Below are positions 2,837 to 11,511 of a stretch of DNA of 64,000 bases, piece after piece (position 1 is the first letter of the stretch; every line of letters starts with the position of its first letter). This DNA is from Akkermansia muciniphila (GTDB lineage: Bacteria > Verrucomicrobiota > Verrucomicrobiia > Opitutales > Opitutaceae): contig CAMCZZ010000012.1 of the NCBI GenBank assembly GCA_945888375.1, positions 1-64,000 on the forward strand, written 5' to 3'. Position numbers and translations under genes: made by a program. The notes below the pieces were generated by a model that was given only the letters and a program-made list of their open reading frames with translations, did no database searches and was not told where the DNA came from.

Positions 2837-4057
2837 TCAGGTGGCCTTGGCCGCGAAAACCCGGCGCAGGATCTCGACCGACTCCGCCAACTCCAACTCG
2901 CTCGCAATCAAAGGAGGAAGCAGACGAATGACGTTCCCCCCGGCCAAGGGCGCCAGCAAACCCGCCTCGCGCAGGGCGGCGATATAGGGCGGCGGCTCGG
3001 AGGTAAGTTGCAGGCCCACCAAGAAACCCACGCCGCGAAGGCCGGTCAGCTGCGCGGGAAACTCCTCCGCTAAACGCGCCAGCGCGGCGTGCCACGGGCC
3101 ACTGACCCGAGCAACATGCTCGCAGAGTTTTTCGTCCGCGATGATATCCAGCGTCGCCAAGGAGGCGGCGCAAGCCAGCGGCGTGCCGCCAAAGGTGGTG
3201 CCATGCATGCCGGGCTGAAAAAGATCCGCCGCACTCTCGCCGATCCAAATCGCGCCAATGGGAAATCCGCCGCCGAGACCCTTGGCCATGCCGATCGCGT
3301 CCGGTCGCACCCTGGCGTGGTCGAAGGCGAAAAACCGCCCCGTGCGCCCGATGCCGCATTGGACTTCATCCAAAATGAGCAGCAGATTGTGGCGGTCGCA
3401 AAGAGCGCGTAGACCGCGCAAAAAGTCAGACGTAGCGGGATGAACCCCTCCCTCGCCCTGGATAGTCTCGATGAAGATCGCCGCCGTCCGGTCATCGACC
3501 AACGCCTCAAACGATTCCAGATTGTTCAATTCGCCAAACTCAAAGCCTGAAAGCAAAGGACGGAACCCTTTTTGAATTTTCTCCTGCGGCGTCGCGCTCA
3601 TGCCCCCGAAAGTGCGGCCGTGGAAGGCTGACTTCGCACAGATGACCTTGTGGCACTTGCCCTCCTCGCCGGACTTCCGGATGCCGTGCAGGCGGGCGAG
3701 CTTTAACAGACCCTCGTTGGCCTCGGCGCCAGAGTTGCAGAAAAACACCCGGCCCGGGCCAGCCTGAACGACCAGGCGGCGGGCGAGTTCACCCTGTAGC
3801 GGATTGCGATAAAGATTACTGACGTGCGCGAGGGTGGCCGCCTGCTCGGAGACGGCCCGGACCCAGCGCGGGTGGCAGTGGCCGACGGCGTTGACTGCGA
3901 TGCCCGAGGCAAAATCCAGATAGCGTTTGCCGGCGTCATCCCACACCCGGCAACCCTCGCCGCGGGCAAGAGTAATGGCAGGTCGTCCGTAGTTCCGTAG
4001 AACATACGAATCATAGGCGGCCTCGGCGGCGGTCTGGGCGATCTGGTTCTGGCTCAT
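2837..4057 (-). CDS. argD: Acetylornithine aminotransferase
   Basis: ArgD is a class-III PLP aminotransferase that converts N-acetylglutamate semialdehyde to N-acetylornithine with glutamate as donor. Visible marks are FCNSGAEANE (PLP phosphate site), LILDEVQCGIGRTG with the PLP-nitrogen Asp, and MAKGLGGGFPIGA containing the Schiff-base Lys. At 406 residues it matches the family. The start MSQNQIAQ was chosen over an ATG 42 bases upstream, as it leaves the usual short lead to the first helix. It is placed between argB and argF; the gaps of 93 and 121 bases allow co-transcription or separate promoters. GabT-like or AstC-like activity cannot be excluded, but the gene context argues for ArgD. 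Confidence 0.95.
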   Translation of the reverse strand: MSQNQIAQTAAEAAYDSYVLRNYGRPAITLARGEGCRVWDDAGKRYLDFASGIAVNAVGHCHPRWVRAVSEQAATLAHVSNLYRNPLQGELARRLVVQAGPGRVFFCNSGAEANEGLLKLARLHGIRKSGEEGKCHKVICAKSAFHGRTFGGMSATPQEKIQKGFRPLLSGFEFGELNNLESFEALVDDRTAAIFIETIQGEGGVHPATSDFLRGLRALCDRHNLLLILDEVQCGIGRTGRFFAFDHARVRPDAIGMAKGLGGGFPIGAIWIGESAADLFQPGMHGTTFGGTPLACAASLATLDIIADEKLCEHVARVSGPWHAALARLAEEFPAQLTGLRGVGFLVGLQLTSEPPPYIAALREAGLLAPLAGGNVIRLLPPLIASELELAESVEILRRVFAAKAT

Positions 4058-5106: not shown

Positions 5107-6489
5107 GTGACGGAGTGGCGGCAGCCCGAAAATGCTCTTCACTTCCCTCGTCTCCGGTCCACTTATCCGCCCGTGCCCAGTTCACAGAATACTTTTCCCT
5201 CCCGTGCCGCGCATCGCGCCTGGCTCGCCGGCCAAGCCGCCCTGCCCAAGGGCTTCCGCGTCGGGACCACACGCTTCGAGTTTTTGCCTAAGGAGGCGCC
5301 CAAGCCATCGAAAATGACGCTGACGCTGATCGCGCTCGATGCGCCGACGGCGGATTTTGCGGCCGTCTTTACCAAAAACGCCTTTCCAGGGGCCCCCGTG
5401 ATCGTAGGCCGGAAACGCCTGGGGGAGCCCCGGCTCGGCGCCATCCTGATCAATAATAAAATCTCCAACGTGTGCGCCCCCGATGGCGTCGCCGCCAGCG
5501 AGGCGGTCTGCGCCGCCACCGCCGGACTGCTCGGGCTGGCGCCGTCCGAGGTGCTCCCCTGCTCCACCGGCGTGATCGGCTGGGGCCTGCCGGTCGAGGC
5601 CATGACCGCCGCTCTCCCGCAGGCCGCCACGGCGCTGGCGGCTGGGGATATCCTGCCCGCCGCCGAAGGCATCGTCACAACAGATCTCTACCCCAAAATC
5701 CGCCGCGCCGACCTCGGGGGCGGATCCATCGTCGGCATCGCCAAAGGCGCGGGCATGATCGAACCCAACCTCGCGACAATGCTCGTCTACCTCCTCACCG
5801 ATCTGGCGGTGCCCCGTGAGATTTTGCGCGCCATGCTCAGCCGCGCGGCCGGCGAAACATTTAACCGCATCTCGATCGATAGTGATACCAGCACGTCCGA
5901 CACCGTCGTCGCCGTCTCATCCGGCCTGGTGCCCTGCGCCGACCTCGCCGCCTTTGAAAATGCCCTGCGCGGCGTTTGCGCCGACCTCGCCGAGGACGTG
6001 GTGCGAAATGGCGAAGGTGTTCGCCACGTCCTTCGCGTGCGGGTGACCGGCACGCCGGACGTCACCACCGCGTGCGCCTTGGGCAAGGCCATCGTCAACG
6101 CCCCCCTTTTTAAGTGCGCCATGGCCGGAAACGATCCGAACGTCGGCCGCCTCGTCCAGGCGATCGGCAAATACGTCGGCGCCTCGGGCCTGGGTCTCGA
6201 CCTCTCCAGACTCCGGGCATGCATCGGCGGGCAGGAGATCTTCTCCGGGGGCGCCTTCCGCCTGGACTATGCGAAGGAGTCCGCCTTGGTGGCGCATCTC
6301 CGCTCGGCCGAACTTTATCAGAGCCAACCCACCCCCGACGGCGGCTTCGCCCCCCCAGTGGACTACCCCCCGCACGAACGTTGCGTGGAGATTGAGGTAG
6401 ATGTGGGGGCAGGGCAGGCCACCGCGACGGTTTTTGGCGGCGATCTCACCCACGAATACGTGAGCGAGAACGCCGACTACCGGAGTTGA
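5107..6489 (+). CDS. argJ: Glutamate N-acetyltransferase / ornithine acetyltransferase
   Basis: ArgJ moves the acetyl group from N-acetylornithine to glutamate, recycling it; some members also acetylate glutamate from acetyl-CoA. The precursor cuts itself before a Thr; here that site is in EPNLATMLVYLL, with the Thr as new N-terminal nucleophile. Other marks are PCSTGVIGWGLP and SIDSDTSTSDT. The GTG at 5107 gives 460 residues, longer than the usual roughly 400. An in-frame GTG at 5173 (protein MPSSQNTF...) gives 438 residues and a roomier divergent promoter, and may be the true start. The C-terminal sequence GDLTHEYVSENADYRS is the conserved ArgJ end. argB is divergent. Confidence 0.95.
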   Translation: MTEWRQPENALHFPRLRSTYPPVPSSQNTFPSRAAHRAWLAGQAALPKGFRVGTTRFEFLPKEAPKPSKMTLTLIALDAPTADFAAVFTKNAFPGAPVIVGRKRLGEPRLGAILINNKISNVCAPDGVAASEAVCAATAGLLGLAPSEVLPCSTGVIGWGLPVEAMTAALPQAATALAAGDILPAAEGIVTTDLYPKIRRADLGGGSIVGIAKGAGMIEPNLATMLVYLLTDLAVPREILRAMLSRAAGETFNRISIDSDTSTSDTVVAVSSGLVPCADLAAFENALRGVCADLAEDVVRNGEGVRHVLRVRVTGTPDVTTACALGKAIVNAPLFKCAMAGNDPNVGRLVQAIGKYVGASGLGLDLSRLRACIGGQEIFSGGAFRLDYAKESALVAHLRSAELYQSQPTPDGGFAPPVDYPPHERCVEIEVDVGAGQATATVFGGDLTHEYVSENADYRS

Positions 6490-8495: not shown

Positions 8496-8617
8496 GGAGA
8501 GAGATGCTGGATATGCGCAAGCGAGGGAACGAGCGCGGACAAAGACAAAAAGCGAGCGCAAGGCCCCAGGCGCAAGATTTGCTCCGCTTTCCGCCCAAGT
8601 CGTGCTAGGACCCTGCC

Positions 8618-9523
8618 ATGTCTAAACTCCAAGAACAAACCCCCGCCATCGTCATCACCGCCCTGATCATGGGCGCACTCCTCGGCAGCTACGCCTACTA
8701 TGTGAACGCAAAGGTCCTGCCCGCCCAACGCGCCGAACTAGAAGCCATGCGCAGCGCCCACGCCGCCGACCTCGAACGCACCGCCGCCGAGACCCGCAAG
8801 GAAATCGCTTCGGTGAATAAACTCCTTCAAGATGCCATCGCCACCCGCGCCGGCGGGCTGTTTTTGACCGAGGAGGAAGCCAAGGCCGCCGAAACCGCCA
8901 AAGTCACCCAGCTAGCCGAGGCCGTGGCTCAAAAACTTCAACCCTACAACCCGCTGCCCAAGACGCCGGAAGAAGCCGAGGCCATGCAAAACGCCCAGGT
9001 GGACAAAGTCTCCGGGCGCCTGTCCGAACGCATCCAACCCATCCTCGGCCAGATCGCAGCCGACCAAAACCTCACCCGCGAATCCCTCAACCGCTACGCC
9101 AACCAAATCTCAGAACAAGTCACCGGCGTGCTGGCGGGAGAACTCGATCGCAACGAACGCCTCGGCACCCAAGTCCAGCTCACCCAGAGCCTCGCCCAAG
9201 AATCCATCGCCCTGTCCTCCGAACTCACCGCCCTATACCTGAGCTCGATCAAGGACCAAGGGGTGCTCAACCGCCTCCTCCTCCTCCCCGCCAACATCGT
9301 CCGGGATGCATCCAACTTCAGCTTGCTCAATAACGATGAACGCCGCGCCAAAGAAGCCGAACTGACCAAACGCCTCCGCGACATCCAGACCCGCCTCGAA
9401 GCCGCCCGCACCGCCACCGAAAGCACCCTCTCCAGCCGCAACCAGGAACCCGGTTCCGTGATCGTGGAACCCACCCCTCCGCAAGCCGTGCGCGCCACCC
9501 CCACCCGCCCTTCCGCTCCCTGA
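8618..9523 (+). CDS. Hypothetical membrane-anchored coiled-coil protein
   Basis: The 301-residue protein has one N-terminal membrane segment (about residues 9-28, IVITALIMGALLGSYAYYV), then a long Ala/Glu/Gln-rich helical region (30-275) likely to form coiled coil, and a Pro/Thr-rich tail ending RPSAP. No catalytic motif is visible and I cannot name a family. The layout suggests an inner-membrane protein with a large helical domain in the periplasm or cytosol. It is divergent from the 102-residue gene and ends just before the origin-like region in front of dnaA. Confidence 0.75.
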   Translation: MSKLQEQTPAIVITALIMGALLGSYAYYVNAKVLPAQRAELEAMRSAHAADLERTAAETRKEIASVNKLLQDAIATRAGGLFLTEEEAKAAETAKVTQLAEAVAQKLQPYNPLPKTPEEAEAMQNAQVDKVSGRLSERIQPILGQIAADQNLTRESLNRYANQISEQVTGVLAGELDRNERLGTQVQLTQSLAQESIALSSELTALYLSSIKDQGVLNRLLLLPANIVRDASNFSLLNNDERRAKEAELTKRLRDIQTRLEAARTATESTLSSRNQEPGSVIVEPTPPQAVRATPTRPSAP

Positions 9524-9535
9524 GAACCACATCGC

Positions 9536-9602
9536 GCCGTCACCTCGCCGTCACCCGGCCGTCACGCGAGCGTAAAACCAGACGTAGTGACAAAACCGTG
9601 AC
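9536..9602. repeat. Helically phased GTCAC/GTGAC motif array
   Basis: GCCGTCAC occurs at 9536, 9547 and 9558, an exact 11-base tandem spacing with three variable bases per unit. The reverse motif GTGAC follows at 9587 and 9598, again 11 bases apart. The arrangement puts all sites of each set on one face of the helix and looks like an iteron or operator array rather than chance. Confidence 0.65.
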
Positions 9603-9831
9603 GCTTGGTCCAGAGGGCAAATCACCGCCCTACCTCCGCGCGCTTCTTGGCAACTAAAAAAGACGAAAAAACTTATGCGCCAAACGACGGTGAATAACTT
9701 GTCGGAAACTTCACCTTGAAAGGGTCCAGCCCCTGACCGTTACTGCACTCCCGCCATCGCTTCCGCTAGGCCATATCGCTCTTTACCACCTCCTCACTTC
9801 GCCCCCTCGGCAATCCCCCTCTCAGGGAGAC

Positions 9832-9859
9832 GTTAAATATTTGTTAATGAATATTTAAC
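9832..9859. repeat. AT-rich perfect inverted repeat upstream of dnaA
   Basis: GTTAAATATT (9832-9841) and AATATTTAAC (9850-9859) are perfect 10-base arms around TGTTAATG. Such an AT-rich palindrome stands out in this GC-rich sequence. It lies 150 bases before the dnaA start and could be a DNA-unwinding element or a repressor site. Confidence 0.6.
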
Positions 9860-9969
9860 AAAACCATTTTCTGCGCCTCCTGCGCAACTGTTTTGCAAGG
9901 CTTCCTCCCCTTGGGTTTAACCAGCCAGCGGACGAGTAGTGTGTGTGGTAAAAGCGCTATTGCCAACGG

Positions 9970-9978
9970 TGTGAATAA
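9970..9978 (-). promoter_or_regulatory. DnaA box in the dnaA leader
   Basis: TGTGAATAA is the reverse complement of TTATTCACA, an exact match to the DnaA-box consensus TTATNCACA. It is 30 bases before the dnaA ATG, a usual place for DnaA autoregulation. Confidence 0.6.
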
Positions 9979-10008
9979 ACTCCCGCCCTCCTCTCGCTCC
10001 GCCCACTC

Positions 10009-11394
10009 ATGCCCGCCGCCATCCATAGCTCCAACAACCTCTGGGAATCCGCCAAAGCCGACCTCTGCGGCCTCTTCCCCGAGGACGTGTTCAAGCTTTG
10101 GTTCGATCCCGTGGTCTGTCTGGAAGTAACTCCCGATCAACTCACTCTCGGCGTGCCCAACGATTTTGCCGCCATCTGGATCCATGACAATTATATGGAT
10201 CTCATCCTTCAACGTCTCCGCCTCACCTCCGGGCGCGATATGAAGGTCGTCCTCCGCAGGGCCGAAGCCGCTGGCTCCGCCTCGGGTCTCCCGGGCGCCG
10301 AAGCCGCTCGCCTCCGCGCCGTCGCCCCCCGCCGCGCCCCCCGGCCGGCCGAGGAACGCCTGCCCCTTAATACCTCCTTAAACCTTCGTAATACCTTCGA
10401 AAGCTTCGTGGTGGGAGACAACAACCAGATGGCCGCCGCCGCCGCCCGCGCCGTCGCCGACGCCCCCGGCCAGTCCTACAACCCCCTCTTTCTCTACGGG
10501 GAGACCGGCCTCGGCAAAACCCACCTCATGCATGCCATCGGCCACGCCATCCTCCGGCGCCGCCCCGAGGCCCGCATCGCCTACCTCTCCGCCGAAAAGT
10601 TCACCAACGAATTTATCCAGGCCATTCAGGAAAATGCCCTGACCAAGTTCCGCCAACGCTACCGCCACGTCGATGTGCTCCTGATCGACGATATCCAGTT
10701 TCTCGCGGGCAAGGAGCGCTCCCAAGAAGAGTTCTTCCACACCTTTAACGACCTTCACGGCGCCGGTAAACAGATCGTCATTTCCAGCGACCGCCGCGCC
10801 TCCGAGATCGAAAAACTCGAGGCCCGCCTCGTGTCCCGCTTCGAGTGGGGCCTCCCTGCCGATATCCAGCCGCCCGATTTCGAAACCCGCCTCGCCATCC
10901 TTCGCGTAAAGGCCGCGGCGATGAAGTGTGAACTGCCCCCGGCCGTGGCCTCGTTCATCGCCCAAAACATCTCCCGCAATATCCGTCGCCTCGAAGGCGC
11001 CCTGATCAAGGTCGTATCCTACAGCCAACTCACCGGCAAACCCATCGACCTGGCCGCCGCCGAAAACTTGCTGAAAGACGTTCTCATAGAGCAGGCGCAA
11101 AACCAACTCACCATCGAGGTGGTCCAAAAACGCGTCGCCGATCACTTCCAGATCCGCCACAGCGATATGACCAGCAAACGCCGCCCCAACAATATCGCGA
11201 TCCCTCGCCAAGTAGCCATGTATCTGGTGCGCAACTTGATCCCCAAACACTCCCTGCAAGATATCGGCGATGCCTTCGGCGGCCGCGACCACGGCACCGT
11301 GATCCACGCCTGCAAGGCGGTGGACAACATGCTCTCCCAAGACGCCCACATGAAGGGCCAGATCGAGTTCCTCCGCACCGCCCTCAGTCGCTAA
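10009..11394 (+). CDS. dnaA: Chromosomal replication initiator DnaA
   Basis: DnaA binds DnaA boxes and opens the origin. Domain I is seen at residues 8-75 (LWESAKADLCGLFPEDVFKLW), then an Ala/Arg/Pro linker (about 85-120). The AAA+ domain follows, with FESFVVGDNNQMAAAAARAV, Walker A GETGLGKTH and Walker B VLLIDDIQFLAG. The DNA-binding domain IV carries the signature HSLQDIGDAFGGRDHGTVIH near the C-terminus. The 461 residues are normal. The upstream region with DnaA boxes supports autoregulation and a nearby origin. Confidence 0.97.
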   Translation: MPAAIHSSNNLWESAKADLCGLFPEDVFKLWFDPVVCLEVTPDQLTLGVPNDFAAIWIHDNYMDLILQRLRLTSGRDMKVVLRRAEAAGSASGLPGAEAARLRAVAPRRAPRPAEERLPLNTSLNLRNTFESFVVGDNNQMAAAAARAVADAPGQSYNPLFLYGETGLGKTHLMHAIGHAILRRRPEARIAYLSAEKFTNEFIQAIQENALTKFRQRYRHVDVLLIDDIQFLAGKERSQEEFFHTFNDLHGAGKQIVISSDRRASEIEKLEARLVSRFEWGLPADIQPPDFETRLAILRVKAAAMKCELPPAVASFIAQNISRNIRRLEGALIKVVSYSQLTGKPIDLAAAENLLKDVLIEQAQNQLTIEVVQKRVADHFQIRHSDMTSKRRPNNIAIPRQVAMYLVRNLIPKHSLQDIGDAFGGRDHGTVIHACKAVDNMLSQDAHMKGQIEFLRTALSR

Positions 11395-11446
11395 GCCCCC
11401 CGCTAGATCCGCGGACTACACCGCTCTGGTCACACCTGCCGTTTCG

Positions 11447-11467
11447 CCCGATTGAACGGGGTTTTTT
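11447..11467 (+). terminator. Weak terminator after dnaA
   Basis: CCCG (11447-11450) and CGGG (11457-11460) form a short stem with a 6-base loop, followed by six T (11462-11467). The stem is only 4 bp, but the T run and its place 53 bases past dnaA make a terminator plausible. Confidence 0.4.
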
Positions 11468-11511
11468 ATTCGCTCCCTCGACTCCCACCCCGCCAGCACC
11501 ATCCTGCCGCC

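Follow-up and report, generated by a model that had tools for sequence, protein, structure and literature searches.

Phased GTNAC arrays in front of dnaA in Opitutaceae as probable Pho-box-type sites for PhoB

What are the phased GTCAC repeats in front of dnaA in this genome, and which protein reads them? They lie in a 485-base gap (9524–10008) between an ORF at 8618–9523 and the dnaA start at 10009. The window, the whole stretch of 64,000 bases that was analysed, is part of contig C12 (95,063 bases) of a draft genome of 3.22 Mb. A first-pass annotation had offered two readings of the gap, a replication origin with a lineage-specific initiator element or an operator controlling dnaA, and had drawn no connection to phosphate. 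Our comparison supports the operator, and the arrays are probably Pho-box-type sites through which PhoB changes dnaA transcription when phosphate is scarce. The region is laid out as follows.

8618–9523, plus strand: upstream ORF of 301 aa, co-oriented with dnaA, stopping 12 bases ahead of array A
9536–9565, plus strand: array A, three GCCGTCAC units in 11-base steps (starts 9536, 9547 and 9558)
9587–9602, minus strand: array B, two GTCAC units 11 bases apart (read as GTGAC at 9587 and 9598)
9673–9681, plus strand: DnaA-box-like TTATGCGCC, inside a conserved block, from 47 genus representatives aligned on the next box
9689–9697, minus strand: DnaA box TTATTCACC with one difference, from conservation
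9716–9744, plus strand: promoter-like pair TTGAAA-N17-GTTACT, from conservation
9832–9859, no strand assigned: AT-rich inverted repeat with 10-base arms and an 8-base centre
9970–9978, minus strand: perfect DnaA box TTATTCACA, conserved
10009–11394, plus strand: dnaA (Bac_DnaA, 240.7 bits; Bac_DnaA_C; DnaA_N)

The three GCCGTCAC units, the two inverted GTGAC motifs and the perfect DnaA box are present as the first-pass annotation had described them. The AT-rich repeat, described there as a perfect 28-base element, actually consists of two perfect 10-base arms (9832–9841 and 9850–9859) and 8 central bases that do not pair. Three TTAA motifs follow each other within it at 11-base steps, as in the CtrA-like TTAA-N7-TTAA; these steps are kept in this genome, G011 and G014, unlike the palindrome arms, which are incompletely kept across the three. 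The GTCAC cores of array A start at 9539, 9550 and 9561 and are followed by a degenerate fourth unit, GTAAA, at 9572–9576. Arrays A and B are out of register, their first units being 48 bases apart, which is no multiple of 11. The upstream ORF matches no Pfam or NCBIfam family at the thresholds used. An RNA element was considered and rejected: an Rfam search of 8500–11500 with permissive filters gave three matches, all below their gathering scores and all on the minus strand, within or just past dnaA.

A search of the 3.22-Mb genome for GTCAC-N6-GTCAC gave 12 sites, where the reversed pattern gave 5; a 64-base stretch before dnaA accounts for three of the 12. The triple pattern GTNAC-N6-GTNAC-N6-GTNAC has a single occurrence, at the dnaA array. 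With one mismatch allowed there are seven places versus three for the control: two at dnaA, two overlapping ones before a metallophosphoesterase gene and three elsewhere, which adjoin secY, a PATR protein and a phosphoribosyltransferase and have no phosphate genes next to them. The degenerate array ahead of the metallophosphoesterase (L174, C1:367488–367525) precedes a gene whose product weakly resembles UDP-2,3-diacylglucosamine diphosphatase; we presume that it might take part in low-phosphate lipid remodelling, as for PlcP.

We compared the regions upstream of dnaA in 69 genomes of the host's family, which we take to be the Opitutaceae from the closest named relatives of its dnaA (Verrucomicrobia/Opitutae MAGs) and from general knowledge of the group. 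These genomes cover 47 of the 49 genera seen; g23, in which dnaA lies at a contig end, and g15 were left out, as was G100, with only 301 bases. Positions in the regions fetched later are counted from the start of the dnaA match, at most 27 bases off the first codon. One representative per genus entered the lag test. Between -650 and -370 the 47 representatives contain 94 GTNAC units, which form 42 lag-11 and 18 lag-22 pairs, with no more than 4 at any other lag from 5 to 40; 300 first-order Markov simulations gave a mean of 0.08 lag-11 pairs and a maximum of 1. The neighbouring interval from -370 to 0 holds a single lag-11 pair in the same representatives. The interval -650 to -370 had been fixed after inspection of the first 26 regions. 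In the 26 genera that were fetched once the pattern was known, G130 excluded, 18 pairs have lag 11 and 8 have lag 22; no other lag exceeds 2, and pairs are present in 11 of the 26.

Exact arrays of two to four units are present in 40 of the 69 regions and 25 of the 47 genera, with starts from -418 to -543; none was found in the other 22 genera. Six genomes (G093, G098, G111, G126, G130 and G138) had been fetched with knowledge of the site, and only G130 represents its genus; without them, exact arrays remain in 34 of the 63 regions and in 24 of the 46 genera. With a softer three-unit test, arrays are found in 24 of 47 genera and are absent from 23, and 39 of its hits lie between -600 and -401 versus 2 in the rest of the -900 to 0 range. 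Beyond the family, 2 of 10 further families in the order have a two-unit array before dnaA, near -394 and -421, as do 2 of 12 named loci, L052 (-466) and L053 (-477).

These results separate what is private to this genome from what is shared. Three GCCGTCAC units were found in this genome only among the 26 regions compared, with two units in G011 and G014, and to this extent the element is lineage-specific, as had been proposed; phased arrays as such occur in about half of the genera. What is widespread in the family is phased GTNAC at this position with changed spacers. Array B is kept as GTAGTGAC-N6-GT(T/G)AC in all 10 members of the same genus with an upstream region collected. The orientation of the arrays at dnaA is mixed, and array B of this genome is directed away from dnaA. 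Since the spacers vary freely between genera while register and position are kept, we regard the array as a protein-binding site. The recurrence of the 11-base register in many genera also supports the earlier suggestion of protein molecules that sit next to each other in phase with the helix.

Beyond the array lies a conserved block with a pair of DnaA boxes near -330 and the promoter-like TTGAAA-N17-GTTACT near -290. TGTGAATAA with at most one mismatch is found at -360 to -290 in 60 of the 69 regions, TTGA(A/G/T)N-N17-GTTA in 53, and TTATTCACA occurs exactly within the final 75 bases ahead of dnaA in 62. Judged by its conservation, the pair at 9716–9744 is presumed to be the dnaA promoter.

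In several genera the array stands within what looks like a composite element. A GGCTT..AAGCC-type palindrome lies exactly 9 bases past the array in G029, G035, G057, G060, G072, G098 and G138, 20 bases past it in G065 and G077, and 12 bases past it in G020. A GTATTCA-type box precedes the array by 19–21 bases in ten regions and by 32 bases in two others; three further regions have it 27 or 30 bases ahead or after the array. The spacings of 9 and 20 and of 21 and 32 each differ by 11, which is one unit. The composite occurs in array-bearing genomes of genera g16, g22, g44, g47, g52, g59, g60, g64 and g65, among others. Additionally, an extra exact GTNAC-N6-GTNAC lies near or over the dnaA start in G001 and G004 (about -20) and in G063 (-60).

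The same arrays are found at phosphate genes. In 120 genomes of the family, GTNAC-N6-GTNAC-N6-GTNAC occurs at 107 places versus 17 for the reversed pattern; of the 75 that were listed, 24 precede dnaA, spread over 20 genomes. Of 51 genomes scanned for PF12849 (PstS-type), 49 have a match; 13 of the 27 non-dnaA triple-array places listed for these 51 genomes lie within 4.5 kb of one. PBP_like_2 (PstS-type) matches are numerous in G023 (41) and G059 (17), with no more than 6 in each of the other 49 genomes searched. A Pfam scan of ORFs flanking 22 non-dnaA loci finds the phosphate-selective porin O/P (Porin_O_P) at L144 and L164, PstS-type PF12849 at L144 and L145, VTC at L156, Porin_5 at L152, L165 and L173, histidine kinases at L146, L150 and L151, an MFS transporter at L155 and glycosyltransferases at L169 and L172. 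For 9 of the 22 loci no Pfam family was found in the flanking ORFs scanned, which is weak evidence since the scan did not include every flanking ORF and the ORFs were chosen as the longest, sometimes spurious in G+C-rich genomes; at L163 this choice masked a PstS-type gene 129 bases from the site.

Directly before pstS (within 450 bases), a lag-11 pair is present in only 2 of 30 loci, those of this genome, where it reads GTCAC-N6-GTAAC, and of its neighbour G011. Since many arrays precede a porin gene or follow pstS, whole pstS loci were examined in a second test. The 30 loci contain 25 lag-11 and 18 lag-22 GTNAC pairs, with at most 3 at any other lag; 1.83 Mb of control DNA, in 101 stretches, has 5 lag-11 pairs. 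A chain is present in 16 of the 30 loci, and 14 have no exact pair; the motif thus accompanies phosphate-regulon genes of the lineage, though not at every pstS locus. An oriented GTCAC-N6-GTCAC-N6-GTAAC is common to many phosphate-porin and dnaA sites. After pstS (L190, L194, L195, L197–L200, L204, L208, L214 and L215), GTNAC-N6-GTNAC precedes TTGAC or TTGC and, in many cases, a hairpin resembling a terminator; the arrangement may mark a regulatory point between pstS and the gene after it.

The two groups of sites differ in what lies downstream. In activator-type Pho promoters of E. coli, a -10 element lies about 10 bases after the last repeat. A TA exactly 10 bases past the last unit is found in 0 of 44 dnaA arrays (1 of 44 when these are read in the reverse direction) versus 13 of 22 other triple arrays, which were oriented by likeness to GTCAC..GTCAC..GTAAC and in several cases come from related genomes, so that they do not count as 22 independent cases. 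L146 was excluded from the architecture and TA comparisons, its site lying inside the kinase ORF.

In their direct GTCA-type repeats at 11-base steps, the arrays agree with the Pho box. We built a matrix from 50 E. coli PhoB ChIP-seq sites in the available part of PMC10294691; the background rate came from 121 control stretches of at least 10 kb, about 2.2 Mb in total. Over the 47 dnaA regions the matrix gives 21 hits between -500 and -401, 45-fold above background, and a second peak of 8 hits between -300 and -201 (17-fold) over the promoter-like motif, with 0–2 hits in the other bins. The best hit of a region lies within -560 to -390 in 24 of the 47, where about 9 are expected. The match to mapped PhoB sites thus holds over the 47 genera; in the dnaA region of this genome, the best hit is the AT-rich repeat at 9832–9859 and not array A or B. 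In G022, G026, G110 and G141, which have no array, a matrix hit at about -290 overlaps the promoter-like GTTACT (TGTAACAGTAACGTAAAG type); perhaps these hits represent a relocated site.

The genome also encodes a candidate regulator. There are 31 matches to the PhoB model, of which two alone span it end to end. The better of these, L180 (249 aa, C2:199544–200215), has PhoB (TIGR02154) as its best model, with 247 bits and thus below the curated equivalog cut-off of 296.2. L180 is followed by a PhoR-like kinase that scores best against PnpS and PhoR but reaches the cut-off of neither. The DNA-binding domain of L180 has its best solved-structure match in E. coli PhoB (3t72, 1qqi and 1gxp), and a RTVDxHxRRLR stretch is common to both; at full length, the best solved match is MtrA. 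A second full-length OmpR-type regulator, the product at C8:82632, scores below L180 on the models listed for both.

A PhoB (Pho-box) array is therefore the most likely identity of the dnaA sites, given the siting of the same design at phosphate genes, the peak of the E. coli matrix and the phoB-phoR-like pair. The Opitutaceae sites share with the E. coli Pho box GT(C/A)A(C/T) every 11 bases, recognition of the dnaA arrays by the ChIP-seq matrix, and an architecture present at PstS-type, porin and VTC genes. They differ from it in G+C-rich spacers, in having up to four units, in their position before dnaA and in the missing TA at 10 bases. In the part of the E. coli PhoB ChIP-seq paper that was available, dnaA is not named in the text and oriC appears in one reference only (PMC10294691).

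The best-surviving alternative, which we consider unlikely, is that another OmpR/PhoB-family regulator, MtrA- or CtrA-like (e.g., the product at C8:82632), reads the dnaA arrays, and that the phosphate sites look alike since related regulators read similar repeats. MtrA of Mycobacterium tuberculosis is not known as a phosphate regulator. It belongs to the OmpR/PhoB family, and in the available passages its boxes in oriC are direct GTCACAgcg-like repeats (PMC4285127) and it binds the dnaA promoter, through a motif of 7 bases with a shared core (PMC4285127, PMC2945938). The full-length match of L180 to MtrA, the presence of a second full-length regulator and the different downstream geometry of the dnaA and phosphate arrays are in keeping with this alternative. 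A regulator of this genome scores 206 bits against the MtrA model, for which the cut-off is 300, and the comparison with the MtrA box, made for the GTCAC core, shows a shared core. Against it stand the oriented triple that dnaA and phosphate-porin sites have in common, the DNA-binding domain of L180, which taken alone is closest to E. coli PhoB, and the lower scores of the second regulator. The Opitutaceae differ from the MtrA system in having such sites at phosphate genes as well, and in a dnaA that lies away from the skew origin (see below). At the Caulobacter Cori, as described in the available text, CtrA is likewise a response regulator that reads TTAA-N7-TTAA, also an 11-base step, in a replication control region; its motif is different, its site is at the origin itself, and it competes with DnaA.

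That the region is the chromosomal origin, with the array binding an origin regulator, is very unlikely. In its favour is a group of two or three conserved DnaA boxes that lies, together with an A-rich block, beside dnaA. The first-pass annotation had expected the GC skew to switch here; the draft genome cannot be ordered, and skew was read in 20-kb samples of complete relatives. In five of them the negative-to-positive switch is about 0.7–2.1 Mb away from dnaA: between 885 and 1,500 kb in G017 and between 1,649 and 2,142 kb in G018 (dnaA at 0 in both), between 3,960 and 4,590 kb in G034 (dnaA at 5,610), between 4,430 and 5,040 kb in G097 (dnaA at 3,760), and at the record start in G082 (dnaA at 2,292 kb of 4,320 kb). 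In the complete genome of the same genus, G010 (4,001 kb), the switch is near 3,810 kb and dnaA at 0, about 190 kb apart. G104 and G084 have no clear skew. An exact array is present in G018, G034, G097 and G010 and absent from G082, and the genus of G017 has a soft array only. We therefore set aside, on skew, an origin with a dedicated initiator element. In G018 and G082, dnaA is nearer the skew terminus, and no DnaA box of the form searched was found in 30 kb around the G082 skew switch.

A coincidental or selfish repeat with no regulatory role is scarcely credible: its spacers are unconserved between genera and 22 of the 47 lack an exact array, but turnover of spacers with exact register and position kept is the behaviour of a binding site, and 42 lag-11 pairs stand against the 0.08 simulated.

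Returning to PhoB, we infer its binding at this locus, dnaA as its target and the sign of its control. The arrays lie about 110–250 bases ahead of the conserved promoter-like motif with its DnaA boxes. Under phosphate scarcity, molecules of phosphorylated PhoB would line up next to one another on one helix face in 11-base steps, and bound PhoB would then change dnaA transcription, most likely lowering it, which would lead to less replication initiation. Since the dnaA arrays lack a TA at 10 bases, they are probably no ordinary activator sites; a -10 element about 10 bases downstream is not found at dnaA, and repressor sites need none. Repression or modulation of dnaA in low phosphate is thus the likeliest mode, about evenly balanced against the other modes; repression itself is a guess by analogy, from the missing -10-like TA and the physiology of other bacteria. 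The chances are roughly equal for and against the fuller proposal, in which Opitutaceae PhoB is wired straight to dnaA and the family-recurrent array, lacking the TA and in several genera part of a GTATTCA and GGCTT...AAGCC composite, throttles dnaA and hence replication on phosphate exhaustion.

Response regulators known at oriC or dnaA include, in the available passages, CtrA, MtrA, ArcA and HP1021 (PMC4285127, PMC2945938). Low phosphate lowers DnaA and halts initiation in Caulobacter, by a different route that involves translation inhibition and Lon, with dnaA dropping along with cytoplasmic phosphate; the available phosphate-starvation passages describe no PhoB site at dnaA (PMC10723716, PMC11208175). 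In the PVC relative Waddlia, PhoB has been mapped with another motif, and the accessible text advises defining it in other PVC members (PMC4989314). In the part of the literature that was covered, with few subscription papers among it, no PhoB site or Pho box at oriC or dnaA is reported for Verrucomicrobiota.

Phosphorus is a main ingredient of DNA, and how replication stops when it runs out is known for few lineages. As the array recurs in roughly half of the genera sampled, replication initiation in this family may well be under the direct control of phosphate supply. If true, a direct link from PhoB to dnaA would be a simple answer, testable in cultured Opitutaceae. It would also provide a PhoB binding motif and regulon for Verrucomicrobiota and a phosphate-sensing counterpart of CtrA and MtrA.
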